Source: Brachybacterium subflavum (GTDB lineage: Bacteria; Actinomycetota; Actinomycetes; Actinomycetales; Dermabacteraceae). Taken from it: a stretch of DNA of 64,000 bases. Below, piece after piece: positions 4,164 to 62,829 of the stretch. The stretch lies in assembly GCF_009299795.1 (NCBI RefSeq), contig NZ_VIGP01000006.1, positions 62,001-126,000 of the forward strand, given 5' to 3'. The notes beneath the pieces were generated by a model that was not told the origin of the DNA, did no database searches, and saw only the letters and a list, made by a program, of their open reading frames with translations. The position numbers were made by a program, and so were the translations under genes. Within the stretch, counting starts at the first letter, position 1; the number at the start of each line of letters is the position of its first letter.

Positions 4164-4219
4164 CGAGCGGTGCGAAACTCCCGCCATCAGCGCTTTTGGC
4201 GTCGGTTTCGCACCACTCG
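4164..4219. repeat. GTGCGAAA-type intergenic palindrome, copy 1
   Basis: Arms GGTGCGAAAC (4169-4178) and GTTTCGCACC (4205-4214) are perfect; CGAG/CTCG extend the stem outward after one mismatch, and CGCCA/TGGCG pair inside. It lies between divergent starts, so it cannot be an ordinary terminator for either neighbour. Its inner TTTTGGC segment is shared with copy 4 (62774-62829). Confidence 0.7.
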
Positions 4220-4369
4220 TGGGCAATTCTGCGGGACTCGGTGGCTCCGGGGCGCGCGTGAAGGAGGCCTTCTGCGGGGGCATCGCTGCCCGGCGCTCCA
4301 GGCGCTGTGGAGGACCGGCGGTGTGGATAACTCCTGGTGTGCGGCGCGGGCTTGGGCATTCTGATCGCC

Positions 4370-5311
4370 ATGCCCTCGCGCCGGTCGACCTTGCCCCAGA
4401 GCCTCGCCACCGTGTTCACGATGGCCGAAGCGCGCGATGCGGGCGTGAGCCCACGGCGACTGGATGCCCCGGATGTCCGTCGACTCTCCCGCGGTGTGTA
4501 CGCGCGAGCGGGCGTCGCCGTCACGATCGCCGATCTCGCCCGAGCACACTGCAGCGACGCCCCCGACATCGTCGTGTGCGGCGCCACTGCCGCCGAACTG
4601 CTGAAGATGCCGCTCCCGTTCCGTCGCACGGTGCGCGAGACAGGGGTTCTCGACGTCTCCGCTCAGGCTCGGCGGCGTGACGTGCCGTATGTGCGGTGGC
4701 ATCGGCTCGGCGGGCTCACCGCAGCGGACGTGCTCGAGGCCCAGGGAATACGGTTGACGTCGCGCGTGCGCACCTGGGAGGACCTCGCGGCGGTCCTGAC
4801 GGTCGACGAGCTGGTCTCCGTCACCGACCATCTCATCCGCTGGCCCAGGTTCCGGTTCGAGGGACGCCGACGTCCCTACGCGACCCTCGATGAGCTCGAC
4901 TCGTCCGTGGAGGGCGGTTCGGGACGACGGGGCAACGCGAGGCTGCGCGCAGCGCTCGAGCAGGCTCGCGTGGGGAGCGACTCACCTGCCGAGACCATGC
5001 TGCGACTGCACCTGGCCCGCGCCGGCCTCCCGGAGCCGCGCCTCAACGTCACGATCTCCGAGCGCGGGATCGATCTGGGGCAGCCGGATCTGTCCTGGCC
5101 GGAGTACCGCGTCTGCGCCGAGCATGAGGGGCCGACGCATCTGACCCGTGAACAGCAGGAGCGGGACATCGCGCGGACCGAGGCGAGGGTCCGTCACGGC
5201 TGGATCGAAGTGCGGACGGTCGCCGCAGACCTCCGCGAGCAGGGCGCCCGAGCGGTGAGACGGGTGTCCGCCGCGCTCCGGCGCCACGGATGGGACGGAC
5301 GGAGACGCTGA
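4370..5311 (+). CDS. DUF559/PD-(D/E)XK nuclease-fold protein, AbiEi-like N-terminus
   Basis: 313 residues. The N-terminal part (about 10-60) has the SLATVFTMAEARDAGVSPRRL pattern of the helix-turn-helix found in AbiEi-type antitoxin and DUF559 proteins. The C-terminal part is a Vsr-like nuclease fold: SPAETMLRLHLARAGL, then GQPDLSWPEYRVCAEHEG with D240 and E251-x-E253 as candidate catalytic residues, then a basic helix and VRTVAADL. Such proteins occur in many variable copies in actinobacteria and their role is unsettled (nuclease, defence or selfish function). ATG 4370 is chosen over GTG 4337 because the conserved part starts right after it. The gene is flanked on both sides by members of the same palindrome family. 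Confidence 0.7.
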   Translation: MPSRRSTLPQSLATVFTMAEARDAGVSPRRLDAPDVRRLSRGVYARAGVAVTIADLARAHCSDAPDIVVCGATAAELLKMPLPFRRTVRETGVLDVSAQARRRDVPYVRWHRLGGLTAADVLEAQGIRLTSRVRTWEDLAAVLTVDELVSVTDHLIRWPRFRFEGRRRPYATLDELDSSVEGGSGRRGNARLRAALEQARVGSDSPAETMLRLHLARAGLPEPRLNVTISERGIDLGQPDLSWPEYRVCAEHEGPTHLTREQQERDIARTEARVRHGWIEVRTVAADLREQGARAVRRVSAALRRHGWDGRRR

Positions 5312-5413
5312 GGACGCGCCCTCGCGCCCCGCAGACCCGGCGCCCTCCACGGGCCTCCATCACCTCTCCCGCCACCCTCCCCAGCGATCCCGGGCCCCGA
5401 GGAGACCACGAAC

Positions 5414-5459
5414 GGTGCGAAACCGCCCCCAAGATCGATCTTGGGGGCGGTTTCGCACC
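5414..5459. repeat. GTGCGAAA-type intergenic palindrome, copy 2
   Basis: Perfect 46-bp palindrome: left half 5414-5436 begins GGTGCGAAACC, the centre is CCAAGATCGATCTTGG and the right half is its exact reverse complement. It lies between the convergent DUF559 and MFS genes and may act as a bidirectional terminator. The central 16 bases are identical to copy 3 at 36697-36752. Confidence 0.8.
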
Positions 5460-5521
5460 ACTCGATGGCCGTGGGAGGGGGACACCTCGCTGGGCCGGTC
5501 CCGCAGCCCTTCAGCGCAGCC

Positions 5522-6838
5522 TCACACCTCGTCGCCGGCGGTGATGGCCTCGGCCTCCTCCTGGCTGGACAGGTGGTGCTGCTGGCCGACGTGGGAGAGG
5601 TGGCGTCGGCCGATGACGAGCATCAGCATGCTCAGCACCACGGTGACGGCGCCCAGGATGTACGGCGAGGCGGGTCCGGCGGCGGATTCGGAGAGCGGGC
5701 CCGCGACGGCCGGGGCGATCGCGCCGCCCAGGAAGCGCACGCCCGAGTAGGCGGAGCTGGCGACGCCGCGCGGCAGGTCGGTGGCCTCCATGACGGTCTC
5801 GGTCAGCGCGGTGTTCATGACGCCCAGCAGCAGGCCGCCGATGATGATCAGCACGATGATGCCGACCATCGATCCGTGCGCGAGGGCGAGGCCCAGCATG
5901 AGCACGGCGAGCAGGCCCTCGATGGTGAGCAGCGTGGGGATCAGGCCCAGCTTGCGGGTGAGGATCGGGGCGACGAACACCGAGGTGATCGCGAGGCACA
6001 CGCCCCAGCCGAAGAACACGCCGCCGATCTGCATGGCGCCGAACTCCTTGCCCTGGGCCGCGGCAGCGGCCTCGAGCGGGAACGGGGAGTAGGCGAGCAT
6101 CACGAAGAAGGTGAAGTTGTAGAAGATCGCGACCAGCGCGAGGGTGCGCAGAGCCGGGTTGCCCAGCGCCCGCAGGGAGGCGAGCGGGGAGACGTGGACC
6201 GGCTTGGCCTCCTTCTTCAGCAGGGCGGTGATGGCGATGAAGCCGATGGCCATGAGCACGGCGGTGCCGAAGAACGGGGCGCGCCAGGAGACGCTGCCCA
6301 GCAGGCCGCCCAGCAGCGGGCCGAGCGCCATGCCGATGCCCAGCGCGGTCTCGTAGAGGATGATCGCGCCGCCCGACGGGCCGGCGGTGGCGCCCACGAT
6401 CGCGGCGAGCGCGGTGGAGATGAACAGGGCGTTGCCCAGGCCCCAGCCGGCGCGCAGGCCGATGATCTCGCTGACCGAGCCGGACGCCCCGGCGAGCGCC
6501 GCGAAGACGACGACGAGCGCGAGGCCGATCAGCAGGGTGGTGCGCACGCCGACCTTCGAGCTGAACCAGCTCGTGAAGAACATGGCGATCGCGGTGATGA
6601 ACAGGTAGCTGGTGAACAGCAGCATCGCCTGCGTGGGCGAGGCGTCCAGCTGGGAGCTGATCGCGGGGAGGATCGGGTCCACCAGGCCGATGCCCATGAA
6701 GGACACGGTCGCGGCGAAGGCGATCGCCCACACGGCCTTGGGCTGGTGGAAGGCGTCGCGCAGGGTGGGAGCGGTGTTCGACGCGGGGGCGGGCGCTGAG
6801 CCCGCCGTGTGCGGATTCGTGTCGGAAGGGGCTGTCAT
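5522..6838 (-). CDS. MFS drug-efflux-type transporter
   Basis: 438-residue major facilitator with about twelve hydrophobic segments starting near residue 36 (AIAFAATVSFMGIGLVDPILPAI). The loop between TM2 and TM3 (SSKVGVRTTLLIGLALVVV) is the MFS motif A region. The polar N- and C-termini are cytosolic. It follows the MarR gene by about 100 bp in the same direction, the usual layout of a MarR-controlled efflux pump, so export of a small toxic compound or aromatic ligand is likely; the substrate cannot be read from sequence. ATG 6838 has GAGAAGG upstream. Confidence 0.85.
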   Translation of the reverse strand: MTAPSDTNPHTAGSAPAPASNTAPTLRDAFHQPKAVWAIAFAATVSFMGIGLVDPILPAISSQLDASPTQAMLLFTSYLFITAIAMFFTSWFSSKVGVRTTLLIGLALVVVFAALAGASGSVSEIIGLRAGWGLGNALFISTALAAIVGATAGPSGGAIILYETALGIGMALGPLLGGLLGSVSWRAPFFGTAVLMAIGFIAITALLKKEAKPVHVSPLASLRALGNPALRTLALVAIFYNFTFFVMLAYSPFPLEAAAAAQGKEFGAMQIGGVFFGWGVCLAITSVFVAPILTRKLGLIPTLLTIEGLLAVLMLGLALAHGSMVGIIVLIIIGGLLLGVMNTALTETVMEATDLPRGVASSAYSGVRFLGGAIAPAVAGPLSESAAGPASPYILGAVTVVLSMLMLVIGRRHLSHVGQQHHLSSQEEAEAITAGDEV

Positions 6839-6939
6839 GCGATCGGTGACCTTCTCATGATCGGTGGGGCGGGACGTCGGAGGACGGGTTCGGGGGAGCG
6901 GGCGAGGCCGCCGGGTCGGGGCGCGGCGACGCCGACGAG

Positions 6940-7401
6940 TCAGGTCGCGGGAGGTGCGGAGCCGGTCGCGGGAGGGGCGGAGTCGTGGGTCTCCACGATC
7001 CGCGCCAGGATCTCGGCGGCCTGCGCGAGGGTGCGGCGGTCGTCGTCCCCGAGGTCGTCGAGGATGGGGCCGACGCCGTGGTTCATGCGGCTGCGCCAGT
7101 CGGCGAGCTTCTCGCGGCCGGCCGGGGTGATGTCGACGAGGACGGAGCGCGAGTCGGCGGGATCGGGGGCCCGGAAGACCAGGCCCTCCTCCTCCAGTCG
7201 CTTCGCCACGGTGGTCGCCGTGGGGCGGGTGACCCTCTCGCGCTCGGCGATCTCGCTGAGCCGCAGCGGTCCCCGCTGCTCGATCGTGCTCACGACCCGC
7301 CAGGAGACGGAGGAGACGCCGACGTCCGCGCGGCGCGCGGCGAGCCGCACGAAGCGGCTGCAGGCGAGCGTCAGGTCCTGGGGGAAATCTTGGGTGGGCA
7401 C
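6940..7401 (-). CDS. MarR-family transcriptional regulator
   Basis: 153-residue winged-helix regulator. The recognition region is LRLSEIAERERVTRPTATTVAKRLEEEGLV (about 51-80) followed by the wing with the conserved DPADSRSVLVDITPAGR. N- and C-terminal helices would form the dimer. Start is GTG 7401. The gene precedes and probably represses the MFS pump at 5522-6838. An inverted repeat 12-32 bases upstream of the start is a good operator, so autoregulation with release on ligand binding is the expected scheme. The C-terminal tail has a short GSAPPAT repeat. Confidence 0.88.
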   Translation of the reverse strand: MPTQDFPQDLTLACSRFVRLAARRADVGVSSVSWRVVSTIEQRGPLRLSEIAERERVTRPTATTVAKRLEEEGLVFRAPDPADSRSVLVDITPAGREKLADWRSRMNHGVGPILDDLGDDDRRTLAQAAEILARIVETHDSAPPATGSAPPAT

Positions 7402-7412
7402 GTCACCCCAAT

Positions 7413-7433
7413 GTAGTTAGGAATGCGAACTAC
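7413..7433. promoter_or_regulatory. MarR operator candidate
   Basis: Inverted repeat GTAGTT-N9-AACTAC immediately upstream of the MarR start; the AGTT...AACT half-site pattern is typical of MarR boxes. It sits in a locally AT-rich stretch that would also contain the promoter of the marR-MFS operon. Confidence 0.65.
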
Positions 7434-7494
7434 TGCAACATGCTGTGGCGCACGGGACGGCGGGCGGCGGTCTGTGGGTGGGTGGATGCCTCGC

Positions 7495-9054
7495 TCAGTC
7501 GCCCGTCGGCCGGTCTTCGTCGTCCGCGCCCCGGCGCGAGGCGGCGCCGTGGTTCCAGTCCGGATGCCAGCTGCCGGGCCCCGTGTACGGGTGGTCGCCG
7601 ACGTCGGCCTGCATCTGCGCGAGCTGCGCGGCCAGGTCTTCGCGGATCCCGGCGTAGTCGGGGTCCGCGGCGACGTTGCGGAGTTCCTCGGGGTCCGTGC
7701 GCAGGTCGTAGAGCTCGTACTCGCGCTCGAAGACGCGGTCCGAGGCGCCGGGCGCTCCGAGGCCCGCGCCGTAGTAGTCGATGAAGGCGAACTCCTCTGT
7801 GCGGATCCCGTAGTGCGCGGGAGCATGGTGCTCGGGGTCGTCGTGCTCCCAGTAGCGGTAGTAGACGGCGCGCGGCCAGTCCTCGATCTCCTCGCCGCGC
7901 AGCAGCGGGCGGAAGCTGCGGCCCTGCTGGCCGGGCATCGCCGCGTCCGCGTCGAGACCGGCGACGTCCAGCAGGGTCGCGGCGATGTCGACGTTGCGCA
8001 GCATCGAGGTCACGCGCGATCCCGCCGGGACCTCGGCGGGCCAGCGCACGAGCATGGGCATCTGCAGCGACTCGTCGTACATCAGGCGCTTGTCGAACAG
8101 CCCGTGGTCACCCAGGAAGAACCCCTGGTCCGAGGTGTAGACCACGAGCGTGTCCTCGGCGATGCCGAGCTGATCGAGGTGGTCGAGCACGCGGCCCACG
8201 CTGTCGTCGACCGCCTGGACGGTCTGCAGGTAGTCGCGCAGGTAGCGCTGGTAGTTCCAGCGGGCGCGGTCCTCGCGGCGGTCCTCGGCGCGCAGCTCCT
8301 CGGGCATGTCCTCCTTGACGTCGGTGCGGGTGAGGTCGTCGGCGATCGACATGCGCGCGCCCTGCACCGCCTTCGAGCGGGTCGAGAGGTCCTCGAGGAG
8401 GGTCTCGGGCTCGGGGATGCTGCCCACGGGGTAGCGCTCGGCGTGCCGGGGGTGCGGGATCCACGGCCGGTGCGGCGCCTTGTGGTGGAGCATCAGGCAG
8501 AAGGGGTCCGACGGGCGCTGCGCGCGCTCCTCGTCGATCCAGTCGAGCGCCATCTCCGTGAGCAGATCTGTCACATACCCCTCGTGCTGCTCCTCGCCGT
8601 CCGGCGTGAGGAACCGCGGATCCCAGTACTCGCCCTGGCCGGGGAGGATCCGCCAGGAGTCGAAGCCGCGCGGCAGGGCCGACGGCGAATGGCCCAGGTG
8701 CCACTTCCCGAACAGCGCGGTCGCGTACCCGGCGTCCTGCAGCGCCTCGGAGACCGTGGGCACGCGGTGGTCGAACTCGGTGTAGAGCGTCGCGGCGCCG
8801 TTGATGTGGCTGTAGGTGCCCGTGAGGATCGAGGCGCGCGACGGTGTGCAGATCGAGTTCGTGCAGTACATGGCGTCGAGCCGCGCGCCCTCCTCTGCGA
8901 GACGGTCCATGTGCGGGGTGGAGTTCACGCGGCTGCCGTACGCGGAGATCGCGTGCGCCGCGTGGTCGTCGGACATCACGAAGACGATGTTGGGGCGGGC
9001 GGGGGATGACGGGACGCCGCGCGCTGCGGACGACGCATGGCCGGGGCTGGACAT
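7495..9054 (-). CDS. Sulfatase (arylsulfatase superfamily, Cys-type)
   Basis: 519-residue sulfatase. The N-terminal NIVFVMSDDHAAHA supplies the metal-binding Asp pair (about residues 27-28). CTPSRASILTG carries the CxPSR motif with C69, to be converted to formylglycine by a separate enzyme. GKWHLGH and DQGFFLGDHGLFDKR complete the active-site signatures. ATG 9054 follows AGGAG by about 5 bases; upstream in-frame codons lack family similarity. I see no signal peptide, so a cytosolic enzyme acting on an imported oligosaccharide or sulfated sugar is likely. Divergent from the fucose operon, it may remove sulfate from fucose-containing glycans (inference). Confidence 0.88.
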   Translation of the reverse strand: MSSPGHASSAARGVPSSPARPNIVFVMSDDHAAHAISAYGSRVNSTPHMDRLAEEGARLDAMYCTNSICTPSRASILTGTYSHINGAATLYTEFDHRVPTVSEALQDAGYATALFGKWHLGHSPSALPRGFDSWRILPGQGEYWDPRFLTPDGEEQHEGYVTDLLTEMALDWIDEERAQRPSDPFCLMLHHKAPHRPWIPHPRHAERYPVGSIPEPETLLEDLSTRSKAVQGARMSIADDLTRTDVKEDMPEELRAEDRREDRARWNYQRYLRDYLQTVQAVDDSVGRVLDHLDQLGIAEDTLVVYTSDQGFFLGDHGLFDKRLMYDESLQMPMLVRWPAEVPAGSRVTSMLRNVDIAATLLDVAGLDADAAMPGQQGRSFRPLLRGEEIEDWPRAVYYRYWEHDDPEHHAPAHYGIRTEEFAFIDYYGAGLGAPGASDRVFEREYELYDLRTDPEELRNVAADPDYAGIREDLAAQLAQMQADVGDHPYTGPGSWHPDWNHGAASRRGADDEDRPTGD

Positions 9055-9478
9055 GGGGCTCCTCGTGGGTCGTCGATCGGCGACCGGACTGAGAGCAGCC
9101 GCCGTGCTGCCATACGGGCACGCTATCGCGATCCATGGCGTGGGGGAGCGGTCGATGCGCGTCCGGACGCGCCATACATCCGAGGACCGCCCGACGGGCA
9201 TCCGGGATTCAGAGGAGCGCGGAGTCGGGGTGGGCCGCTGACATGCGAGCACGCAGGGGCGGAAACGCGGATGGACGCGGCAATCCCTCGGACACCTCTT
9301 GACTCATCCCATGTTTTCCTCAAGAGTGGTCGTGCCGCGAAGACATCCGATGTCTTGAGGGGCGGGCCTCGACGGCGCAGGACGCGACGGCACATGACGC
9401 GCGGCTCGGGCCTCTGCGGCTCGGGCGTCCGCGGCGCTCGAGAAGGACGACGACGACCTTCGGGACCAGGGGTGGTAC
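9055..9478. other. Divergent intergenic region sulfatase / fucose importer
   Basis: 424 bp. Besides the operators and -35-like element at 9299-9356, the inverted repeat CTCTTGA...TCAAGAG brackets the weaker operator. The stretch from 9357 to the importer start is GC-rich and without recognisable sites. I see no gene here. Confidence 0.5.
9302..9356. promoter_or_regulatory. Control region of the fucose operon: two ACATC-type operators
   Basis: A perfect 17-bp palindrome AAGACATCcGATGTCTT occupies 9340-9356. A second, weaker copy (CATCCCATG core, 9302-9318) lies 38-39 bp upstream and overlaps a TTGACT -35-like element (9299-9304). A half-site ACATCCGA at 9176-9183 lies nearer the divergent sulfatase. 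The same palindrome recurs at 20622-20640 in front of the other fucose operon, so one regulator, most simply the GntR protein at 18002-18775, should bind both. Confidence 0.65.
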
Positions 9479-10732
9479 ATGCCGATGACGAAGAGAGCCG
9501 CACCGCTCTCGCGCCGCGCGCTGCTCGCAGGCGCGGGCATGGGACTGCTCGGTGCCTCCGGCGCGCTGACGGCCTGCGGAGGACAGGGCGGCGACCCCAG
9601 CACGCGACTCTTCACCTGGATCTCGAGCGCGAGCGATCGCGAGCAGTGGCAGGCGTTCATCGACGCCGCGCAGCAGGAGGACCCCGGATTCTCCCTCACT
9701 CTCGAGGGCCCCAGCTTCGAGGACTTCTGGACCAAGGCGAAGACCCGGATGACGGCGAAGGACGCCCCTGCGCTGCTGACCACGCAGGCGGCCAGGACGC
9801 AGGAGATCGGCCCCCTGCTCGCTCCGCTCGAGGATCTCGCGCAGGACGCGGGCGTCGATCTGGGCGCCTTCAACGAGGCGATGATGACCGCCATGACGGT
9901 CGACGGCACCATCCGCGCCGTCCCGTACGACGCCGAGCCGATGGTCCTCTACTTCAACCGCTCCCTGTTCGAGGACGCCGGCCTCCAGATGCCCGGCCTC
10001 GACTACACCACCGACCATTTCCTCGAGGATGCGAAGGCGCTGACCTCGGGGGACGTCCACGGCCTCGCGATCTCCGCGGGCCTCGTGCACCTGGGCATGG
10101 CGATCGGCTTCGCCGACGGCGGAGCCCCCGTCGCCGACGGGGGCCTCACGCTCACCGACCCCGCGATCGTCGAGGGCATGCAGTTCGGGTTCGACCTCGT
10201 CACCGAGCACGGCGTCGCGACGGCCCCGCCGGCCGTGGACTCCGAGCCGGCCGCCCAGCAGGACCTCATGAGCAGTGCCGCCGCGATGTACGTCGACGGG
10301 CCGTGGATGTACCAGGTGTACGCCGACGCCCTCGGCGACGACCTCGGCGTCGGCGTGATCCCCTCGCGCAGCGGCGATGCCCGCGGGCTGATCCAGGGCT
10401 CGGGTTTCGGGATCGCGGCCGAGGCGGAGGACCCCGCCGCGGCGTTCCGGACGCTCGCGGCCATCACGACCCCGGACGTCATCGGCAGTGTGGCCCACGC
10501 GCGCGGCACGTTCCCCTCGCTCGCGCAGGAGCGGGACCGCTGGGCGGAGGGGAAGCCCGAGGACAGCGTCCGCGCCGTGACAGCTCTCGCGGACTCCGGG
10601 CAGCCGCTGGTGACGACCTCGAACTGGAACGAGATCGTCTCGGTCTTCGCCCAGTACGCGACCGACGGCTTCCGGGGGCGCCGCACGGCGCAGCAGATCC
10701 TCGGCGAGATCCAGGAGGCGACCGCACGATGA
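9479..10732 (+). CDS. CUT1 sugar ABC transporter, substrate-binding lipoprotein
   Basis: 417-residue extracellular binding protein. It starts with a Sec/lipoprotein signal: basic MPMTKRAAPLSRR, hydrophobic core, lipobox LTAC with C33 for lipidation. The mature part matches the family 1 (MalE/UgpB-like) fold, with the WISSASDREQWQAFIDAA opening and a PYDAEPMVLYFNRSLFEDAGL segment typical of CUT1 proteins. It is the first gene of the fucose operon and its stop overlaps the first permease start (ATGA). Substrate is inferred from neighbours: fucose, or small fucosylated or sulfated oligosaccharides cleaved inside the cell by the GH29 enzyme. Confidence 0.85.
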   Translation: MPMTKRAAPLSRRALLAGAGMGLLGASGALTACGGQGGDPSTRLFTWISSASDREQWQAFIDAAQQEDPGFSLTLEGPSFEDFWTKAKTRMTAKDAPALLTTQAARTQEIGPLLAPLEDLAQDAGVDLGAFNEAMMTAMTVDGTIRAVPYDAEPMVLYFNRSLFEDAGLQMPGLDYTTDHFLEDAKALTSGDVHGLAISAGLVHLGMAIGFADGGAPVADGGLTLTDPAIVEGMQFGFDLVTEHGVATAPPAVDSEPAAQQDLMSSAAAMYVDGPWMYQVYADALGDDLGVGVIPSRSGDARGLIQGSGFGIAAEAEDPAAAFRTLAAITTPDVIGSVAHARGTFPSLAQERDRWAEGKPEDSVRAVTALADSGQPLVTTSNWNEIVSVFAQYATDGFRGRRTAQQILGEIQEATAR

Positions 10733-11676
10733 CCGCAGCTCTCGACCAGGCGCCCGCGTCGGCCCCCGCCGCGCCGGCGCGCCGCCCGCAGCGCGCGGGC
10801 CGGGGCCGCCCGGCGCGCTGGCCCGCCGTCCTCTACCTCGGTCCGGGCATGCTCGGGTTCGCCGTCTTCATCGTCGTGCCCCTCGCGGCCTCGCTGGTCA
10901 TCAGCGTGTTCGACTGGCCGCTGCTGGGGTCGCCGAAGTTCGTCGGCCTCGAGAACTACCGGTACATGCTCGCGGGCGACCCGGCGTTCTGGCGGAGCAT
11001 GCTGAACACCCTGATCTTCGCGGTGCTCTACACGGCCGTGAACCTCGCCGTCGCCCTGGGGCTCAGCTACTGGCTGATGAACCTCGGCGGCCGCTGGGCC
11101 GCGTTCTTCCGGGTCCTCTTCTTCGTCCCCGTGGTGACGCCGATGATCGGCAACGCGCTGGTCTTCCGCCTCCTGCTCGACGACGACGGCGTGGTCAACG
11201 CCCTGCTCGCCCACCTCGGGATCACCGGCCCGCAGTGGCTCAACACGCCGGGATGGGCGATGGTCTCGCTGGTCATGATGTCGCTGTGGCAGGGGATGGG
11301 CTACAACATCATCGTCCTCGGCGCGGGGATCTCCGGCATCAGCCCCACCGTCCTCGAGGCCTCCCGGATCGACGGCGCAGGGCCCGTGGACCGCTTCGTC
11401 CGGGTGGTCTTCCCGATGCTCTCGCCCACGATCTTCTTCTGCACGATCATGACCGTGATCGGTGCGTTCAAGGTCTTCGCCCAGCCCTACGCCCTCACCG
11501 AGGGCGGGCCGGGGAACGCGACCAACACGCTCGTGCTCCACCTCTACCGCAACGGCTTCTCCTTCGATCGCCTCGGCTACGCCTCCGCGCTCGCCTGGGC
11601 GCTCTTCGTGATCGTCATGCTCATCACCGCCGTCCAGTTCAGCCAGCAGAAGAGGTGGGTCTCCTATGACAGCTGA
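10729..11676 (+). CDS. CUT1 sugar ABC permease (MalF-like)
   Basis: 315-residue membrane subunit with about six transmembrane helices after an Ala/Pro/Arg-rich cytosolic leader. The EAA loop that docks the ATPase is EASRIDGAGPVDRFVRVVFPML. The ATG overlaps the binding-protein stop (ATGA, 10729-10732), so translation is coupled. The second permease starts before this gene ends. No ATPase gene lies in the operon. Confidence 0.88.
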   Translation: MTAALDQAPASAPAAPARRPQRAGRGRPARWPAVLYLGPGMLGFAVFIVVPLAASLVISVFDWPLLGSPKFVGLENYRYMLAGDPAFWRSMLNTLIFAVLYTAVNLAVALGLSYWLMNLGGRWAAFFRVLFFVPVVTPMIGNALVFRLLLDDDGVVNALLAHLGITGPQWLNTPGWAMVSLVMMSLWQGMGYNIIVLGAGISGISPTVLEASRIDGAGPVDRFVRVVFPMLSPTIFFCTIMTVIGAFKVFAQPYALTEGGPGNATNTLVLHLYRNGFSFDRLGYASALAWALFVIVMLITAVQFSQQKRWVSYDS

Positions 11677-12538: not shown

Positions 12539-12597
12539 CTCTTCGCCGATCTTCCCGACCGACCCCGCACCGACGCTCCAGAGGAGACGATGAACCC

Positions 12598-13956: not shown

Positions 13957-14003
13957 TCCCGCCCCACCAACCGACCGACCGACCGAACCGAGGACAACCA
14001 CCG

Positions 14004-17300: not shown

Positions 17301-17304
17301 ACGC

Positions 17305-20729: not shown

Positions 20730-20805
20730 GTGCACGACGCGTAGCAGGAGGTCGGGTCACGGCGAATAGTGCACGTGACCCGACCTCCCACTACGCGTAG
20801 TGCAC
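20730..20805. repeat. Long intergenic inverted repeat (31-bp arms)
   Basis: Arms 20730-20760 and 20775-20805 match at 28 of 31 positions around a 14-base spacer; inner arms include GGAGGTCGGGTCAC. It separates the Gfo/Idh gene ending at 20891 from the FAH gene, both on the minus strand, so it could terminate transcription entering from the former. The sequence is unrelated to the GTGCGAAA family. Confidence 0.75.
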
Positions 20806-34630: not shown

Positions 34631-34691
34631 CGATGTCGCTGGGTGAGGTCTCGACGCGTATATGGGGTCGAGACCTCACCCGGCGACATCG
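34631..34691. repeat. Long intergenic hairpin after xylA
   Basis: Arms 34631-34655 and 34667-34691 match at 24 of 25 positions with an 11-base loop; the arms contain GGGTGAGGTCTCGAC. It lies between convergent genes and probably terminates both. It shows no T-run and no similarity to the other palindromes here. Confidence 0.75.
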
Positions 34692-36696: not shown

Positions 36697-36752
36697 CGAG
36701 TGGCACGAAATCGACGCCAAGATCGATCTTGGCGTCGATTTCGTGCCACTCG
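36697..36752. repeat. GTGCGAAA-type intergenic palindrome, copy 3
   Basis: Perfect 56-bp palindrome; each half starts CGAGTGGCACGAAATCGAC. The centre CCAAGATCGATCTTGG is identical to copy 2, while the outer arm has GGCACGAAA instead of GGTGCGAAA with the matching change in the other arm, a compensated substitution. It lies between two minus-strand genes, upstream of the ATP-grasp gene. Confidence 0.8.
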
Positions 36753-50372: not shown

Positions 50373-50375
50373 CGC

Positions 50376-51979: not shown

Positions 51980-52062
51980 TCACTCCTCGACCAGCGGCGC
52001 GGCCGGGTCGCGGACCGGGGCGGCGACGGCTCCGGGTCGCGGGCGATGGGGCCGGGGATGAG

Positions 52063-52113
52063 CGCACAGCACAGGAGGCCGACCCATCCGGGTCGGCCTC
52101 CTGCGACTGTGCG
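52063..52113 (-). terminator. Terminator of the BCCT gene
   Basis: A perfect 14-bp stem (52072-52085 with 52090-52103, arm CAGGAGGCCGACCC) closes a 4-base loop, and CGCACAG/CTGTGCG (52063-52069, 52107-52113) extend it outside. It lies 57 bp after the BCCT stop. Confidence 0.8.
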
Positions 52114-52169
52114 GTGTCCCGTATCCTCGCGCAGGGCAGACGCCCGTGGCGAGGAGACTCAGGAGACGG

Positions 52170-54086: not shown

Positions 54087-54396
54087 GCGCGGATCCTTCC
54101 GTTAGGGGACGAGACTGCCGGCCGCGCGGGAGCGGAGTCGGTGTGGGCCGAGCCCCGAGGAGGAGGCGGGTCGCGGCAGGGAGGGCGTGCCCGCATCACC
54201 GGGCGCCCTCGCGCCGCGCCTGTCGCCGCGCACCGGCGAGGGGTGGTTCAACGGGCATTCGCCACCGATGCTTTCACAATCGAGCGGACACGTCGCGGCT
54301 CATGCGGGGTGAGACATATGACGTCAGCCTGTGGGGACGTCCGCGCCTCGGGCTGCGCAGCGGGGAATCGGCCGCGGGCTCCGGGGCGGACGGGGA
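54087..54396. other. Intergenic region araD / BCCT
   Basis: 310 bp. A somewhat AT-richer stretch (54247-54320) could hold the BCCT promoter, with a TTGTGA word on the minus strand. I find no convincing terminator for araD, no operator and no gene. Confidence 0.4.
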
Positions 54397-55230: not shown

Positions 55231-55261
55231 GGGTCTCCTTCGAAGTGCGGCCCCATCATCA

Positions 55262-55275
55262 TGGCAACGTTCACA
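55262..55275 (-). promoter_or_regulatory. Arabinose-regulon operator at araD
   Basis: Minus-strand TGTGAACGTTGCCA. The promoter TTGCAC, 18-bp spacer, TAATGT ends inside it, so a bound repressor would block araD initiation. Confidence 0.72.
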
Positions 55276-55347
55276 TTACGGTTCTGGCGACAGCGCGTGC
55301 AAGACCGGCGTCGGAGTGTGCGCTCGCCGAATCGCTGGTCTTGGGCG

Positions 55348-55387
55348 GGTCTGCGGACCTTTCCGTTCGCTGAAAGGTCCGCAGACC
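55348..55387. repeat. Intergenic hairpin between araB and araD
   Basis: Perfect 16-bp arms GGTCTGCGGACCTTTC and complement (55348-55363, 55372-55387), 8-base loop, with GGGC/GCCC extending the stem. It lies between the araB end and the araD promoter and likely terminates the lacI-araB transcript, giving araD its own unit. Confidence 0.75.
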
Positions 55388-55453
55388 GGCCCGAAACGGG
55401 AGCGTCGAGGCTGTCACGCGGCTCGGCGCCAGGCCGTGTACGGCGCCCCGCCG

Positions 55454-57157
55454 TCAGTCGATGGACTCGCCGGCCAGGCGCTCCGCGGGGAGTGCGGCAC
55501 GGTAGGAGCGCAGCCACCGGGCGTACCCGGCCGCGCCCTCTTCGGTCGGCTCGAGCGTCGTGACCTGCTGGGAGGCGAAGACCTCATCGGCCAGGAAGCG
55601 GCGCAGCGCGTCGGCGGTGGCCGCCTGCTCCCCTCCGGTCCGTCCGCCGTCCTGACCGTCCTGACCGTCCTGAACGTCCTCGGCGCCGTCGCGGGCCAGC
55701 TGCGCCGTGTGCGCGGCGAGCAGCGCCATGCCCCAGGCGCCGCCCTCCCCGGCGGACTCGCCGAGGGCGACGGGGGTGCGCAGGGCATCGGCGAGGACCT
55801 GCTGGGCCACGCCCTTCGTGCGGAAGATGCCGCCGTGGGCGTACATGACGTCGAGCCCCACCTTCTCCTCCTCGAGGAGCACCTCCATGCCCACGGCCAG
55901 CGCGCCGAAGGCGCCGTGCAGCTGGGCGCGCATGAGGTTCTCGAGCGTGAAGCTCGCCTGCTGGGTGCGCACGAGCAGCGGCCGGCCGGAGTCGACGCCC
56001 GTCTGGTGCTCGCCCGAGAGGTAGTTGAAGGACAGCACACCGCCCGCGTCGGCGTCGCCCGCGGCACCGGCCTCGAAGAGACGCGCGTAGAGCTCCTCGG
56101 TGTCGACGTCCTGCCCGAGCAGCTGCGCGAACTGCGCGAACACCCCGAGCCACTGGTCGAGATCGCCCGTGCAGTTGTTCGTGTGGATCATCGCGACCGG
56201 GTCGCCCGAGGGGGTCGTGACCATGTCGATCTCCTCGCGGGGGGTCGCGAGGGGGCGCTCGAGCACGACCATCGCGAAGGCGCTGGTCCCGGCGCTCACA
56301 TTGCCCGTGCGCGGGGCGATCGCCTGGGTCGCGACCATGCCCGTGCCGGCGTCGCCCTCCGGCGGTGCGGTGAGGGCGCCGGCCTCGAGGGCACCCGACG
56401 GGTCGAGCAGCCGCGCGCCCTCCTCGGTGAGCGTCCCGGCGTCCTGCCCGGCCACGAGCACCTCCGGGAGCAGATCGGCGAGGTCCCACGGGACGCCCGC
56501 GACCGCATCGAGGGCGGCGAAGCGCTCGAGGAGATCGCGGTCGTAGTCCGGCGCGCCGCCCGCGGAGGAGATCGGGAACATGCCGCTGGCATCGCCCACG
56601 CCCAGCACGGAGCGTCCGGTGAGGCGGCGGTGGACGAGGCCGGAGAGCGTGGTGATCGCGGCGATCCTCCCCACATGCTCCTCGCTGCCGAGCACGGCGT
56701 GCAGGAGATGGGAGACGGACCAGCGCAGGGGGATGTTCTGGCCGAAGGTCTCCGAGAGCAGGGACGCTGCGTCGGACGTATAGGTGTTGCGCCAGGTGCG
56801 GAACGGGGCGAGCAGCTCGCCGTCCGCGTCCAGGGCGATGTAGCCGTGCATCATCGCGGAGATGCCCAGGGACGCGAGGCGGGCGAGCGGCACGTCGAAG
56901 CGCGTGCGCACGGCGTCGGCGAGGTCCGCGAAGCACGCGGCCAGGCCCTCCCAGACCTCGTCCATCGGGTACGTCCAGCTGTCGTCGGCCAGGGTGTTCT
57001 CCCAGGCGAACGAGCCGGTCGCGAGCACGGCCCCGGCATCGTCGATGAGGGCCGCCTTGATCCGGGTCGAGCCCAGCTCGATCCCCAGGTGCGCGCGCCC
57101 CCGGGAGATGAGGTCGGCGGCATCGGGGCGGGGGGCGGTCACATCGTCGTGAGTCAT
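55454..57157 (-). CDS. araB: FGGY-family kinase, probable L-ribulokinase
   Basis: 567 residues. The FGGY fold starts with HLGIELGSTRIKAALIDDAG (ATP/Asp site) and has WSVSHLLHAVLG, GDASGMFPI, GNVSAGTSAFAMVVL and GGIFRTKGVAQQVLADAL. Length fits ribulokinases more than xylulokinases, and the neighbourhood (lacI upstream, araD downstream, araA nearby) supports phosphorylation of L-ribulose. A short Gln-Asp-Gly repeat from 9-bp units lies near residue 500. No good ribosome binding site precedes ATG 57157. A xylulokinase role cannot be excluded, since no xylB is present beside xylA. Confidence 0.8.
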   Translation of the reverse strand: MTHDDVTAPRPDAADLISRGRAHLGIELGSTRIKAALIDDAGAVLATGSFAWENTLADDSWTYPMDEVWEGLAACFADLADAVRTRFDVPLARLASLGISAMMHGYIALDADGELLAPFRTWRNTYTSDAASLLSETFGQNIPLRWSVSHLLHAVLGSEEHVGRIAAITTLSGLVHRRLTGRSVLGVGDASGMFPISSAGGAPDYDRDLLERFAALDAVAGVPWDLADLLPEVLVAGQDAGTLTEEGARLLDPSGALEAGALTAPPEGDAGTGMVATQAIAPRTGNVSAGTSAFAMVVLERPLATPREEIDMVTTPSGDPVAMIHTNNCTGDLDQWLGVFAQFAQLLGQDVDTEELYARLFEAGAAGDADAGGVLSFNYLSGEHQTGVDSGRPLLVRTQQASFTLENLMRAQLHGAFGALAVGMEVLLEEEKVGLDVMYAHGGIFRTKGVAQQVLADALRTPVALGESAGEGGAWGMALLAAHTAQLARDGAEDVQDGQDGQDGGRTGGEQAATADALRRFLADEVFASQQVTTLEPTEEGAAGYARWLRSYRAALPAERLAGESID

Positions 57158-57270
57158 GGCCCTATTCGATCAGGCGCACCCGGGGTCGGCAACGTGCGGA
57201 TCGGGCGCGGCGCGGGATTCCGGCCGCCCGGGAGCATCGGCGCGAGCGGCCGAGGGCGCGGAGGTGCGTC

Positions 57271-58323
57271 TCAGCGAGGTCGGATGCTCGACTCGCGGAC
57301 GACGAGCTCCGGGGCGAGCGCGGCGGGGGAGTGCGACGGGCCGCTGCTGCCGTCGGCCGCGTCGGACCCCTCCGACTCGTCGGCACCGTGCCCGAGCCGC
57401 GCGAGCAGCCGGTGCATCGCCGCCCGACCGAGCTGCGCGAAGGGCTGGGCGACGGAGGTGAGAGAGGGCGTGGAGTAGGTGGCGCCCTCGATGTCGTCGA
57501 AGCCGACGAGGGCGACGTCGCGGGGCACCTCGATGCCGCGCTCGCGCAGGGCGCGCAGGATCCCGATCGCCATCAGGTCGTTCGCGGCGAAGATCGCGTC
57601 CGGGAGTGCTCGCGCGGCGAGCTCCGTGCCGATCCGATGGCCCGAGCGCGCCGACCAGTCGCCGGGTTCCGTGCACTCGCCGTCGGCCCCGATCCGCGCG
57701 AGCGCCTCCTCCGTGCCGCGGCGGCGGGCGCGCGCGTCGAACCAGTCGACGGGGCCCGGCACGTGCACGATCCGACGCATGCCCTGCTCGGTCAGGTGCG
57801 CGATGACCGCGCGGGCGCCGCTCGCCTGGTCCACGCCGACGACCTCCACGCCCGTCGCGTCCAAGGGCCCGGAGGACACCGAGAGCACGGGGGTGGTGCG
57901 GGCCGCGGCCTCGGCCACGGGCGTCATCCCGTCGTGCCCGGCGACCACGATGATCCCGTCGACCCCGGACCCGACGAGGTCCGAGGCGACCTGCTCGTGC
58001 GGCTCACCAGGGGCGACGGTCGCGAGAAGGGTCGAGTAGCCGGCCTCGCGCGCGGCCCGTTCGATCGCTGCGGTGGTCTCCGCGGGGCCGAACAGCGAGG
58101 AGCCGTCCGACAGCACGCCGACGAGCGCCGAGCGGGTGGTCTTCAGCGCCCGGGCCGCGCGGTTGCGCGCGTACCCGAGCTCGTCGATCGCCTCGAGCAC
58201 GCGGTCGCGGGTCTCCGGGCGCACGATCGCGGGCTCGTTCAGCACTCGGGAGACCGTCTGGTAGGAGACCCCGGCGCGCGCCGCCACATCGAGCATCGAG
58301 GGTCGGCGCGAGGTCGTCGGCAT
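57271..58323 (-). CDS. LacI-family regulator of the arabinose genes
   Basis: 350 residues. HTH SMLDVAARAGVSYQTVSRVLNEP, hinge AARALKTTRS, effector core up to ALVGFDDIEGATYSTPSLTSV. ATG 58323 lies 5 bases after GGAG. Located between araB and the ChvE-like importer, which it faces divergently. Its likely operator, TGTGAACGTTnnnA, recurs at araA, araD and twice in its own upstream region, making it the arabinose repressor (AraR in function). Confidence 0.86.
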   Translation of the reverse strand: MPTTSRRPSMLDVAARAGVSYQTVSRVLNEPAIVRPETRDRVLEAIDELGYARNRAARALKTTRSALVGVLSDGSSLFGPAETTAAIERAAREAGYSTLLATVAPGEPHEQVASDLVGSGVDGIIVVAGHDGMTPVAEAAARTTPVLSVSSGPLDATGVEVVGVDQASGARAVIAHLTEQGMRRIVHVPGPVDWFDARARRRGTEEALARIGADGECTEPGDWSARSGHRIGTELAARALPDAIFAANDLMAIGILRALRERGIEVPRDVALVGFDDIEGATYSTPSLTSVAQPFAQLGRAAMHRLLARLGHGADESEGSDAADGSSGPSHSPAALAPELVVRESSIRPR

Positions 58324-58652
58324 GGGAGCTCCGTGGATGTCGGCGGGGGAGGAGGTGCGTGCGGCATGCGTGGGGGAGTGCGCGGGGCCTTTCGAAGGAT
58401 ACGGCGGCACGGCTGCGGGCACCCCCGTCGCGCACGCCGATGTGAACGTTGCGATTCCGTGACCTCGTGGGGCGCGCAAAGAGTTGCGCCCGGAGAGGAT
58501 GTGAACGTTATCATCCATGGTGCTCCACGCCACAGAGCGTGGATCCGATGCCGCCGGCACCGCTGCCGGCCCATCCGCCCGCCGCCCCATCTCGTCGCCC
58601 GCGCAGCGCGCGCGAGCCCCGGACGCGGACACCGTTTCGAAGAGGAGACACC
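58324..58652. other. Divergent intergenic region arabinose lacI / chvE
   Basis: 329 bp. It holds the two operators, the importer promoter and a small inverted repeat GCGCAA/TTGCGC (58474-58489). A TATCCT -10-like word for lacI lies on the minus strand near 58396. No gene is seen. Confidence 0.5.
58441..58514. promoter_or_regulatory. Twin arabinose operators, lacI / importer divergent region
   Basis: TGTGAACGTTGCGA (58441-58454) and TGTGAACGTTATCA (58500-58513), 59 bp apart in the same orientation. The second overlaps a + strand -10-like TATCAT (58509-58514) preceded by TTGCGC (58484-58489) and so should control the importer; the first may serve the lacI gene. Looping between them is possible. 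Confidence 0.7.
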
Positions 58653-59822
58653 ATGACCAGCAGCCATCCCGTGCCCAGCAGGCGCACGTTCCTCGCCGGC
58701 GCCGGCTCCCTCGGCGCCATCGCCGCCCTCGCGGCCTGCTCCGGCGGCGGCGCCGGATCCTCGGGCCCCGACACCGAGGCCGACCCCAAGGACCAGACCA
58801 TCGGCGTGGCCATGCCCACCCAGACCTACGAGCGCTGGGTCCAGGACGGCGCGAACATCAAGAAGTCCCTCGAGAAGGAGGGCTACAAGGTCACCCTCCA
58901 GTACGCCGACGACGACATCCCCACCCAGTCCCAGCAGATCGACCAGATGGTCACCCAGGGCGTCGCCGCATTGATCATCGCCTCGATCGACGGCTCGGCC
59001 CTGACCAGCCAGCTCGACGCCGCGAAGGCCGCCGGGATCCCCGTCATCTCCTACGACCGCCTGCTCACCAACAGCGAGAACGTCGACTTCTACGTCACCT
59101 TCGACAACTACAAGGTGGGCGTCACCCAGGCGAACTCCCTGCTCTTCGGGCTGGGCCTGCTCGACGAGAAGTTCAAGAAGGCCTCCGACGCCCCGAAGGG
59201 CCCGCTGAACATCGAGCTGTTCGCCGGCTCGCTCGACGACAACAACGCCCACCTGTTCTGGAAGGGCGCGATCGACACCCTGCAGCCGTACATGGACGAC
59301 GGCGTGCTCGAAGTGCCCTCCAAGCAGACCGACATCGACCAGTGCGCCATCCAGCGCTGGGAGCAGGAGACCGCGCAGAAGCGCATGGAGAACCTGCTGA
59401 CCACGCACTACAAGGGCGACAAGAAGCTCGACGGCGTCCTCGCCCCGGCCGACCCGCTCTCGCGCGGCATCATCAACGCCCTGCAGAACGCCGGCCGCGG
59501 CGACACCATCGATGACGGCCTGCCGATCATCACCGGCCAGGACGCCGAGATCGCCTCGATCAAGCTCATCGCCGACGGCGTGCAGTTCTCGACGATCTTC
59601 AAGGACACCCGCAAGCTCGCCGACCAGGCCGTGGTCGCCGCGAAGGCGTACCTCGAGGGCGAGGAGCCGGAGGCGAACGACACCAAGACGTACGACAACG
59701 GCTCGAAGGTCGTCCCCTCCTACCTGCTGCCGGTCGAGATGGTGCTCGAGTCCAACTACGAGAAGATCCTCGTCGACTCCGGCTACTACACGGAGGAGCA
59801 GGTCGAGAAGGGCCAGGCCTGA
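58653..59822 (+). CDS. chvE: ChvE-like multiple-sugar-binding lipoprotein (CUT2)
   Basis: 389 residues. Signal with [21 protein letters not shown] (lipobox Cys C29), then the CUT2 pentose/hexose-binding fold: [72 protein letters not shown], and [13 protein letters not shown]. This is the ChvE/XylF group binding monosaccharides in a closed pocket. ATG 58653 follows AGGAG by 5-6 bases. Regulated with the arabinose genes, so L-arabinose is the probable ligand. Confidence 0.9.
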
Positions 59823-59937
59823 GCGTGCTCGGGACGAATCGGCGTCGGCCGCGGGACCGGCGGATGCTCGCCGCGGCCGACGCCCCCACCCGTGCCCGCG
59901 GCGCATGCACCTGTGCCCCAGCCCGAAGGAGGGCCCG

Positions 59938-61521
59938 ATGAACGACAGCATCCTCGAGATGCGCTCCATCACCAAGCGCTTCCCCGGCGTCACCGCCCTG
60001 AAGGACGTCTCCCTGAGCGTCCGCGAGGGCGAGATCCACGGGATCTGCGGGGAGAACGGGGCCGGGAAGTCCACGCTCATGAAGGTGCTCTCGGGTGTCG
60101 AGCCCGCCGGCACCTACGACGGCGAGATCCATTTCCGCGGCCGCCCCATGAGCTTCCACTCGGTCAACGACTCCGAGGCCGAGGGGATCGTGATCATCCA
60201 CCAGGAGCTCGCCCTGGTGCCTCACCTGACCATCGCCGAGAACATCTTCCTGGGCAACGAGCGCTCCCGCGGGGGCGTCATCAGCTGGGGCGAGACGAAC
60301 GCCGAGGCGCTGCGCCTGCTGCGCCGGGTGGGGCTCGACGAGAACCCGGTGACGCCCGTCGGCCACCTCGGGGTCGGCAAGCAGCAGCTCGTCGAGATCG
60401 CCAAGGCGCTCTCGAAGAACGTGAGCCTGCTGATCCTCGACGAGCCCACCGCCGCCCTGAACGACGACGACTCCGAGCACCTGCTCGGCCTCATCCGCGG
60501 CCTGCGCGACGAGCAGGGCGTCACCTCGATCATCATCTCCCACAAGCTCGGGGAGATCGCCGAGATCGCCGACACCACCACCGTCATCCGCGACGGCTCG
60601 ACCATCGAGACCATCGACATGCACGGCGGGGGAGCGGGCGGCGGCACGTCGGCCGACGGAGCCCCCGTCGGCCCGACGGGACGCGCCCTCATCCCCCGGA
60701 TCATCAAGGGGATGGTCGGGCGCGACATGGACAGCATGTTCCCCGAGCGCAGCGTCGAGATCGGCGAGGAGGTGCTGCGCATCGAGGACTGGCACGTCAC
60801 CCATCCGACCCAGCCCGACCGCACCCTCGTGGACGGCGTCTCGATCACCGCGCGCGCAGGTGAGGTCGTCGGCATCGCCGGCCTCATGGGCGCCGGCCGC
60901 ACCGAGCTCGCGATGAGCGTGTTCGGCCGCTCCTATGGGCGTGAGATCAGCGGGAGGGTGTTCATGCACGGGCGCCCCGCGAACGTGCGCGGCGTGGCCG
61001 ACGCGATCGGCAGCGGCATCGCGTACGTCAGCGAGGACCGCAAGCGCTACGGGCTGAACCTCATCCAGGACGTGCGGCGCAACATCAGCGCCGCGGCACT
61101 GGACAAGGTCTCCCGCACCGGCTGGATCGACGGCAACCAGGAGATCTCCGTCGCCGAGCGCTACCGGAAGTCGCTGAACATCAAGACACCGACGGTCCTC
61201 TCGCGCGTCGGCCAGCTCTCCGGCGGCAACCAGCAGAAGGTCGCGCTGAGCAAATGGCTGTTCACCGAGCCCGACGTGCTGATCCTCGACGAGCCCACCC
61301 GCGGCGTCGACGTCGGCGCGAAGTACGAGATCTACACGCTGATCAACGAGCTCGCCGAGCAGGGGAAGGCGATCGTCGTGATCTCCTCCGAGCTGCCCGA
61401 GGTGATGGGGCTCGCCGATCGCATCTACACACTGTCCGCCGGCCGCATCACCGGTGAGGTGAGCGCCGCGGACGCCACGCAGGAGCACCTGATGGAGCTC
61501 ATGACCATGGAGAGGGAGTGA
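59938..61521 (+). CDS. gguA: CUT2 sugar ABC transporter ATPase (GguA/XylG-like)
   Basis: 527 residues with two ABC domains in tandem. First: Walker [10 protein letters not shown] (38-46), [11 protein letters not shown]; its signature is degenerate (GVGKQQ). Second: degenerate A loop GLMGAGRTE (about 315), signature LSGGNQQK and [19 protein letters not shown], the usual CUT2 pattern. An extra Gly-rich linker ([15 protein letters not shown]) lies between them at about 229-245. ATG 59938 follows AAGGAGG by 6 bases, 115 bp after chvE. It powers the importer with the GguB-like permease. Confidence 0.93.
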
Positions 61522-61531
61522 GGGACCACCG

Positions 61532-62713
61532 ATGGCCGGAACCTCCGATATCAAGGACCTGCTCACCAGGAACGTCCGCCAGAGCGGCATCTACATCGCG
61601 TTCGTGTTCATCGTGCTGCTGTTCACGGTGCTCACCCGCGGCGCGCTGCTGAGCCCGGGCAACCTCACGAACCTGATCCTGCAGTACTCCTACATCCTGA
61701 TCCTCGCGATCGGGATGGTGCTCATCATCGTCGCCGGGCACATCGACCTCTCGGTCGGCTCGGTCGTCGCGTTCACCGGCTCGGTCGCCGCCGTGGTCGT
61801 CATCCAGCACGGGCTGCCGTGGTGGCTGGGGATCCTCGCGGCCCTGGGCGTCGGCATCCTGGTGGGGCTGTGGCAGGGCTTCTGGGTCGCGATCGTGGGC
61901 ATCCCCGCCTTCATCGTGACCCTCGCCGGCATGCTCATCTTCCGCGGCATGACCATGCAGACCCTGGGCAACGTGTCGCTCTCGCCGTTCCCCGAGGCGT
62001 ACCAGAAGATCGCCGGCGGATTCCTCAACGGCCTCTTCGGCGGGCCCGGGTACGACGTGTTCACCCTGGTCGTCGCGGCCGCCGTGGTGATCGTTTTCGC
62101 GCTCCAGCAGTGGCGGGCGCGCCTCGCGAAGCTGCGCTACGACCAGAGCGTCGAGGCGCTGTGGATCTTCGCGGTCAAGGTCGCCGTCGTCGCCGTCATC
62201 GTGATGGCCTTCGCCTGGCAGATCGCCAATGCCCGCGGCCTCCCCGTGGTGCTGATCCTGCTCGCCGCGCTGATCCTCATCTACTCCTTCGTCAGCCAGC
62301 AGACCGTCTTCGGTCGGCACGTCTACGCCATGGGCGGGAACCTGCAGGCCGCGAGGCTCTCCGGCGTGAAGACGCGCCTGGTGAACATGATGCTGTTCGT
62401 GAACATGGGCCTGCTCTCCGCGATCGCCGGCATCGTCTACTCGGCCCGCTCGAACTCGGCGCAGCCGGGCGCGGGCAACATGTTCGAGCTCGACGCGATC
62501 GCTGCGGCGTTCATCGGCGGCGCCGCCGTCAGCGGTGGTGTGGGCAAGGTGCAGGGCGCCATCATCGGCGGCCTGATCATGGCGGTCATGTCCAACGGCA
62601 TGCAGATCATGGGCATCGGCCAGTCCACCCAGTCGATCGTGCGCGGCGTGGTGCTGATCCTCGCCGTCGCCTTCGACGTCTACAACAAGAAGCGCGCCGG
62701 CGCCGAGGGGTGA
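61532..62713 (+). CDS. gguB: CUT2 sugar ABC permease (GguB/XylH-like)
   Basis: 393 residues, about ten hydrophobic helices. GMVLIIVAGHIDLSVGSVVAFTG is the CUT2 permease signature; later AIAAAFIGGAAVSGGVGKVQGAIIGGLIMAVMSNGM is equally conserved. Ten bp after the ATPase gene. It forms the channel of the arabinose importer. Downstream are two large palindromes, which may terminate the operon. Confidence 0.93.
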   Translation: MAGTSDIKDLLTRNVRQSGIYIAFVFIVLLFTVLTRGALLSPGNLTNLILQYSYILILAIGMVLIIVAGHIDLSVGSVVAFTGSVAAVVVIQHGLPWWLGILAALGVGILVGLWQGFWVAIVGIPAFIVTLAGMLIFRGMTMQTLGNVSLSPFPEAYQKIAGGFLNGLFGGPGYDVFTLVVAAAVVIVFALQQWRARLAKLRYDQSVEALWIFAVKVAVVAVIVMAFAWQIANARGLPVVLILLAALILIYSFVSQQTVFGRHVYAMGGNLQAARLSGVKTRLVNMMLFVNMGLLSAIAGIVYSARSNSAQPGAGNMFELDAIAAAFIGGAAVSGGVGKVQGAIIGGLIMAVMSNGMQIMGIGQSTQSIVRGVVLILAVAFDVYNKKRAGAEG

Positions 62714-62773
62714 GCGGGCGGGCCGGCGGCCCGCCAGGCCCGGCGGCCCGGCTCGTCGGCCGCCCGCGGAGCG

Positions 62774-62829
62774 CGAGAGGTGCGAAACCGCTGCCAAGAG
62801 TGCTTTTGGCAGCAGTTTCGCACCTCTCG
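62774..62829. repeat. GTGCGAAA-type intergenic palindrome, copy 4
   Basis: Arms 62774-62788 (CGAGAGGTGCGAAAC) and 62815-62829 are perfect complements; after one mismatch GCTGCCAA/TTGGCAGC continue the stem. Total 56 bp, the same length as copy 3. It lies 60 bp after gguB in a convergent gap. Confidence 0.8.

Follow-up and report, generated by a model that had tools for sequence, protein, structure and literature searches.

The 64,000-nt window considered here (the whole stretch of Brachybacterium subflavum DNA that was analysed) carries four long palindromes of related sequence, which an earlier note made from the letters had described as a dispersed intergenic family. The question raised by this locus is what these elements are and how their symmetry is kept. 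Two of the four flank a nuclease gene, and the reading preferred here, to which we assign a probability of roughly 60%, is that the palindromes are cognate sites of the nuclease whose gene they flank. The features concerned are as follows, with "." as the strand of the palindromes.

4164..4219, strand., palindrome copy 1, 56 bp, near-perfect; divergent gap, upstream flank of the nuclease gene
4337..5311, strand +, nuclease gene, 324 aa, GTG start; open reading frame, homology match spans the whole model
5409..5464, strand., palindrome copy 2, 56 bp; convergent gap, downstream flank of the nuclease gene
36697..36752, strand., palindrome copy 3, perfect 56 bp; solo, between tandem genes
55343..55392, strand., second-family palindrome with GGGTCTGCGGACCTTTC arm, solo; arms like those flanking a broken second nuclease copy (L001)
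62774..62829, strand., palindrome copy 4, 56 bp, near-perfect; solo, between convergent genes

A dispersed family of intergenic palindromes

Re-reading of the window letters returned the sequence and symmetry of all four sites as described: copy 3 is perfect over the full 56-mer, and copy 2 over a 46-bp core (5414-5459) within the 56-bp element 5409-5464. The pattern CGAAAN{18,40}TTTCG occurs four times in the window; across 100 dinucleotide shuffles the mean was 0.11, and no shuffle gave as many as four. The folding z-scores of the four 56-mers as single-strand DNA are -5.5, -10.6, -13.3 and -10.2. The earlier note had proposed counting copies in the complete genome and in its relatives. A search with a degenerate 40-mer, allowing up to 3 mismatches, located 14 copies of CGAGWGGYRCGAAAYNNNNGCCAWGANNNNTCWTGGCNNNNRTTTCGYRCCWCTCG-type 56-mers in the window genome (G000; 3.99 Mb in 25 contigs), and its reversed control located none. 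Among the 58 genomes searched with this tolerance, the pattern was present in 3 of the 36 of the genus, namely G000 and two sister species (19 copies in G025, 16 in G029), with no match in the 33 other congeners or in the 22 genomes of other genera. A species-genome collection, from which the window genome itself and its closest neighbours may be missing, contained the exact pattern only in Brachybacterium halotolerans MASK1Z-5. A simple gene caller based on codon usage places all 49 copies of the three genomes between genes. The family is dispersed, sequence-related and intergenic, as first proposed. Its sites are mostly orthologous among G000, G025 and G029 (copy 1 has orthologues at L066 of G025 and L072 of G029), and one G000 gap missed by the pattern still has a palindrome with diverged arms (site E). 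The window family is old and for the most part inherited vertically, so that no recent jumping is seen.

The window has further long intergenic palindromes, which differ in sequence from the four. A perfect 56-bp palindrome of unrelated sequence (62925-62980) shares the convergent gap of copy 4, at a distance of 95 nt, and a 61-bp palindrome with a CGATGTCGCTGGGTGAGGTCTCGAC arm (34631-34691) belongs to another family, with relatives in G025 (L058:16094) and G035 (L236:15178). The intergenic inverted repeat at 20730-20805, 76 nt long and with GTGCAC at its foot, is unrelated to the other palindromes of the window. Arms of GAGAAGTTGCTGTCA or GAGAAGTCGTCGTCA-like type mark a sister subfamily (L060 ~4890-4950, L062:17945-18001, L045:8880-8936), which adjoins the main family or stands in its place.

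Placement of the palindromes

The 20 distinct sites of the window family lie in 10 convergent, 7 tandem and 3 divergent gaps, and 17 of them are located 37-135 nt past a stop codon (135 nt for copy 3). In a sample of G025 made up of 40 evenly spaced 20-kb pieces, 74 of 437 gaps are convergent, giving a binomial p of 0.0007 for the convergent excess of sites. The same unbiased sample contains 21 palindromes of score at least 18, with none in a called CDS; 12 are in convergent, 8 in tandem and 1 in divergent gaps, versus 74, 253 and 110 gaps of these kinds. Congeners have long palindromes of different sequence in orthologous gaps: outside the clade, a strong palindrome, differing in sequence, follows pgi in 12 of 27 congeners, and one of score at least 18 is found in the gap downstream of gdhA in 5 of 27 genomes. 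Such a preference for gene 3' ends would suit a role in bidirectional termination or as hairpins at mRNA 3' ends; the nuclease association would then be a by-product of compact gene ends. We regard this as unlikely, as TTTT follows within 12 nt of the hairpin at 0 of 27 sense-strand ends, and as a terminator needs no shared sequence, yet the arms are common to the copies within a lineage and to the pair at a nuclease gene. The view of the earlier note that termination does not explain all copies is upheld by the missing U-tracts and the divergent gaps.

Clustering of family copies towards the origin is weak and plays no part in the reading preferred here. With positions set by dnaA, the origin-proximal half holds 11/14 clusters in G025, 11/12 in G016, 5/6 in G014 and 5/6 in G058 (binomial p 0.03, 0.003, 0.11 and 0.11), and on contig C1 of G023, chosen after looking and with 3 copies on C2 unplaced, 13/13 clusters are within 0.61 Mb of dnaA. 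A terminus or ter-domain function was rejected, since the dnaA positions show the opposite.

One site is occupied by a lone palindrome in G000 and by two, bracketing a gene, in G025 and G029. On its left side, the G000 palindrome has a flank like that of the first copy (81% over 161 nt), and on its right side one like that of the second copy (93% over 43 nt). A relative of the bracketed gene (84% over 566 aa) is found in the corresponding neighbourhood of G035, which makes a deletion in G000, with the two palindrome copies as its end points, the simpler reading. Two sites are without the element in G035, in gaps too diverged for target duplication to be read, and the comparison of a few orthologous gaps, similarly diverged, established no duplication.

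A nuclease gene between copies 1 and 2

Copy 1 sits 117 nt ahead of the nuclease start and copy 2 lies 97 nt past its stop. The earlier note missed that two of its four sites flank this gene, and likewise that the association recurs with unrelated palindrome families. The N-terminus of the protein is AbiEi-like (E 7.7e-9, profile search) and its C-terminus is restriction/Vsr-like of the MTES_1575/DUF559 type, with a PF18741 match (E 0.0036) that falls under the gathering score. Among 24 members of this protein type (~300-390 aa, an AbiEi-like N-terminus joined to a Vsr/DUF559-like nuclease C-terminus), PF18741 (MTES_1575) is found in 14 and PF04480 (DUF559) in 10 at E <= 0.01. The profile of the 24 members has 3r3p, a "Mobile intron protein", as its best match among solved structures (E 0.005), with 3hrl at E 0.21; the single-sequence structure model of the window protein has a pLDDT of 37.6, too low to be of use. 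Nuclease matches are found in 38 of 38 genomes of the genus, and profile matches in 221 of 248 genomes of the order, in a search at the level of the proteins alone. Proteins of this kind in the order go under the names DUF559 or AbiEi family, with no role assigned.

A broken second copy of the nuclease gene is present in the window genome (L001, G000:C1:335702-337009) as two match pieces, with a palindrome on each side (scores 21 and 20). A phage origin of the nuclease was considered and rejected: the only homolog among 50,697 phage records is in an unverified contig, and two viral-contig scans detected no relative.

An AbiEi-like N-terminus and a palindrome upstream of the gene would also fit a repressor, with the palindromes as operators at its own gene and the solo copies, which are kept in place, as its regulon. 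This we consider distinctly improbable, as most sites (the 17 noted above) are 3' of genes and not in promoters, and as the gene often has a palindrome of the same family downstream as well. Furthermore, from site to site of a genome the inner arms vary yet keep their symmetry, and the loop varies too, a pattern not expected from one operator consensus. The genes beside the 14 copies appear functionally mixed (first 80 residues, judged by eye; not all are library-annotated), and the regulon idea was rejected on this ground.

Association of palindromes and nuclease across the genus

Palindromes are associated with this gene type in other lineages of the genus as well, and the families involved are dispersed and lineage-specific. 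In G025 and G029, as in the window, palindromes bracket the nuclease gene; in G016 and G023 the same gene type lies between palindromes of other families, and in G035 palindromes at C1:660509 and 661851 enclose a nuclease gene at 660678-661655. When 20 x 20 kb were sampled from G035 and again from G023, one palindrome family proved dominant in either genome. The family 2 pattern is present in 14/38 genomes (24 copies in G016) and the family 3 pattern in 18/38 (22 copies in G028, 18 in G023); the G035 family pattern has 15 copies in G035 and single matches in 5 other genomes, 3 of them non-palindromic. Within G016, four tandem palindrome copies with an 82-bp period were observed at L253 ~5780-6060, and one copy of another family falls inside a called CDS. 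Some close palindrome pairs bracket genes other than the nuclease, such as an alpha/beta-hydrolase-type gene (G035 C16) and another gene in G016 (L254).

The association was measured in three ways. First, 205 copies of four families from 25 genomes were entered from search tables, leaving out one non-palindromic chance match each in G013, G028 and G024, 4 of the 7 G007 copies, and nuclease matches beyond the row at E 2.4e-18; of these copies, 16 are within 400 bp of a nuclease match versus 0.35 expected, and they come from 10 genomes and all four families. Second, a palindrome of score at least 16 is found on the 5' side of 13/30 nuclease loci versus 5/326 control genes, on the 3' side of 13/30 versus 22/326, and on both sides of 8/30 versus 1/326; at 12/30 loci neither side has one. 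L271-L273 among the 30 are one orthologous unit counted three times, and without them the counts are 11 (5'), 10 (3') and 6 (both) of 27. The heuristic misses window copy 1 (score 8, L273), and the test is therefore conservative there. The 5' excess, like the sites in divergent gaps, also speaks against terminators. Third, the 5' and 3' palindromes of one gene are alike: over 18 pairs, with window copy 1 and one G016 copy (L274) entered by hand, the resemblance to the own partner sums to 241, compared with 175 for the best of 20,000 shuffles, and the own partner ranks first in 12 of the 18. With the hand-entered copies removed, 16 pairs gave the same result, again with 0/20,000 shuffles reaching the observed value. 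The palindromes flanking a nuclease gene are thus matched to each other.

Homologs in other genera

Eight homolog loci were drawn from plasmid and phage records, the large "plasmid" records being possibly chromosomal. At Tsukamurella L308 and Arthrobacter L304 the two gene ends carry matching palindromes. A palindrome of score at least 16 was found upstream of L301 and downstream of L303 and L307, with a shorter related palindrome upstream at L303; at the remaining 3 of the 8 loci, L302 and L305 have no palindrome close by and L306 has a weak one only. With both strands counted, the L308 palindrome occurs at 20 places, and the 8 records concerned are all from Tsukamurella. The Arthrobacter families occur at 43 and 11 places, all in two records of one strain; neither the L308 nor the Arthrobacter palindromes matched records of any other genus. 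The layout of a nuclease gene with palindromes and dispersed solo copies therefore recurs in Arthrobacter and Tsukamurella.

Symmetry of the arms

The differences between copies are matched in the two arms. In 48 copies (46 distinct rows), changes on both sides were found in 16 of 26 arm pairs, and two-sided-change cells number 122 versus 43.6 in shuffles, with 0/500 shuffles reaching 122; paired cells amount to 95.4%, versus 35-43% with the partner slid by 1 to 3 columns. Orthologous sites change in the same manner, in agreement with the claim of the earlier note that symmetry is kept by matched arm changes. At 13 sites shared by G000 and G025, 261 pairs are the same, 40 are matched doubles, 33 single and 4 other; the corresponding numbers are 202, 45, 35 and 4 for G000 and G029 (11 sites) and 357, 12, 20 and 1 for G025 and G029 (15 sites). 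Element identity in these three comparisons is 82, 77 and 94%, and that of the 60-nt flanks, under a generous alignment, is 59, 55 and 72%. With sister species differing by such matched changes, the way in which palindrome symmetry arises can be tested directly.

In principle a purely mutational process, in which the hairpin templates its own correction as DNA is replicated, could keep the symmetry; the palindromes would then have no function and the nuclease no part in it. The closest genomes, G025 and G029, show the 12 matched doubles, 20 single changes and 1 other double in 390 pairs; double changes are frequent, transversion pairs included, and some arms run past the family boundary, all of which would suit such a process. 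As it leaves both the arm sequence common across sites and the nuclease association unexplained, we give it very little weight as the whole explanation, although hairpin-templated correction may be part of the mechanism.

Comparison with known systems

The closest parallel is with REP elements and their RAYT (TnpA-REP) enzymes, the "REPtrons": both have scattered extragenic palindromes in lineage-specific families, and a nuclease-type gene flanked by cognate copies, although a different enzyme is involved here. REPs measure 20-40 bp and carry GTAG or CGTC tags, according to PMC3733652, whereas the Brachybacterium palindromes are ~45-70 bp, near-perfect and symmetric with neither tetranucleotide at either foot, and number tens of copies rather than hundreds. 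The enzyme is AbiEi plus Vsr/DUF559-like, and the genus has no HuH Y1 transposase: PF01797 was found in 0/38 genus genomes, with a control positive in 5/14 named genomes (Y1 class only), and a RAYT partner was rejected on this basis. An alternative is that a transposase moves the palindromes, as classical REP elements or MITEs, and that the nuclease is a passenger. The dispersed, extragenic, lineage-specific families and the repeat-flanked gene, as in REP/RAYT loci, would suit it, but, besides lacking the foot tetranucleotide and the Y1 transposase, the system has the nuclease as its repeat-flanked gene in four families, and we find this alternative improbable. The earlier designation "REP-like" therefore holds for a dispersed extragenic family, but not in the strict sense.

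The nuclease domain has its best solved-structure match in 3r3p, which we take to be the EDxHD (Vsr-like) homing endonuclease I-Bth0305I. The Brachybacterium nuclease differs in lying outside an intron or intein and in having an AbiEi-like N-terminus, and it presumably targets palindromes spread over many intergenic gaps. An I-Bth0305I-type homing endonuclease is reported to dimerise on a target of nearly 60 bp (PMC3943268), and the similarity of this length to that of the ~56-bp palindromes is suggestive only. The AbiEi-like N-terminus recalls the AbiEi antitoxin of the AbiE type IV toxin-antitoxin system, but here it is fused to a nuclease domain, and the gene is the sole ORF called between the palindromes, with no AbiEii partner there. 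Stem-loop (SLS) repeat families are likewise species-specific intergenic hairpins, but differ in that the accessible portions of PMC1590033 and PMC2267715 link no cognate nuclease to them. At the level of listings, the open literature, outside which most subscription journals lie, contained no link of a DUF559/AbiEi/Vsr-like nuclease to dispersed palindromes, and listings on Brachybacterium palindromes contained nothing that links such a nuclease to them.

A nuclease and its proposed cognate palindromes

That the palindromes are cognate sites of the nuclease is favoured by the bracketing of its gene, the recurrence in other families and genera, the likeness of the flanking pair, the matched arm changes, the deletion in G000 and the similarity of the nuclease domain to a mobile-intron protein. 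Against it count the nuclease loci with no palindrome on either side (12 of 30), the homolog loci of other genera with none or only a weak one close by (3 of 8), the close pairs that bracket other genes, the mainly vertical descent of the window family, the preference for gene 3' ends, which terminators would show too, and the sub-threshold domain match of the window protein. The suggestion of the earlier note that they could be recombinase or nuclease targets gains a candidate enzyme in the flanked nuclease gene; cutting, and the spread of palindromes by the nuclease, we infer. The nuclease would bind the palindrome or the hairpin formed by it, probably as a dimer whose two subunits each take one arm, and would cut or nick near the palindrome centre, after which repair would copy one arm onto the other and palindromes between sites. 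Cutting with arm-copying repair would explain the perfect symmetry and the drift of each family to its own consensus, as well as the occasional replacement of a family in one gap and deletions between copies. In its workings such an arrangement would resemble a REP/RAYT pair or a homing endonuclease, the enzyme being of a different class, and the best reading of the system may be that it is REP/RAYT-like but built on an unrelated, homing endonuclease-like nuclease.

The data point to an undescribed repeat-plus-nuclease system. A broader proposal, which we hold tentatively and at slightly less than even odds, is that these elements, selfish or domesticated, form a class as yet without a name that is common in Actinomycetota, in which an AbiEi-Vsr/DUF559 nuclease targets its own ~56-bp flanking palindrome, seeds solo copies, homogenises their arms and is replaced by rival pairs. 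If so, each species would carry its own family as rival nuclease-palindrome pairs replace one another in the gaps, and the class would be an independent counterpart of REP/RAYT with restriction enzyme-like chemistry. The nuclease is a candidate partner enzyme for lineage-specific intergenic palindromes in genomes without known REP enzymes, and, if a sizeable part of its family is palindrome-linked, a large unexplained protein family would gain a testable function.
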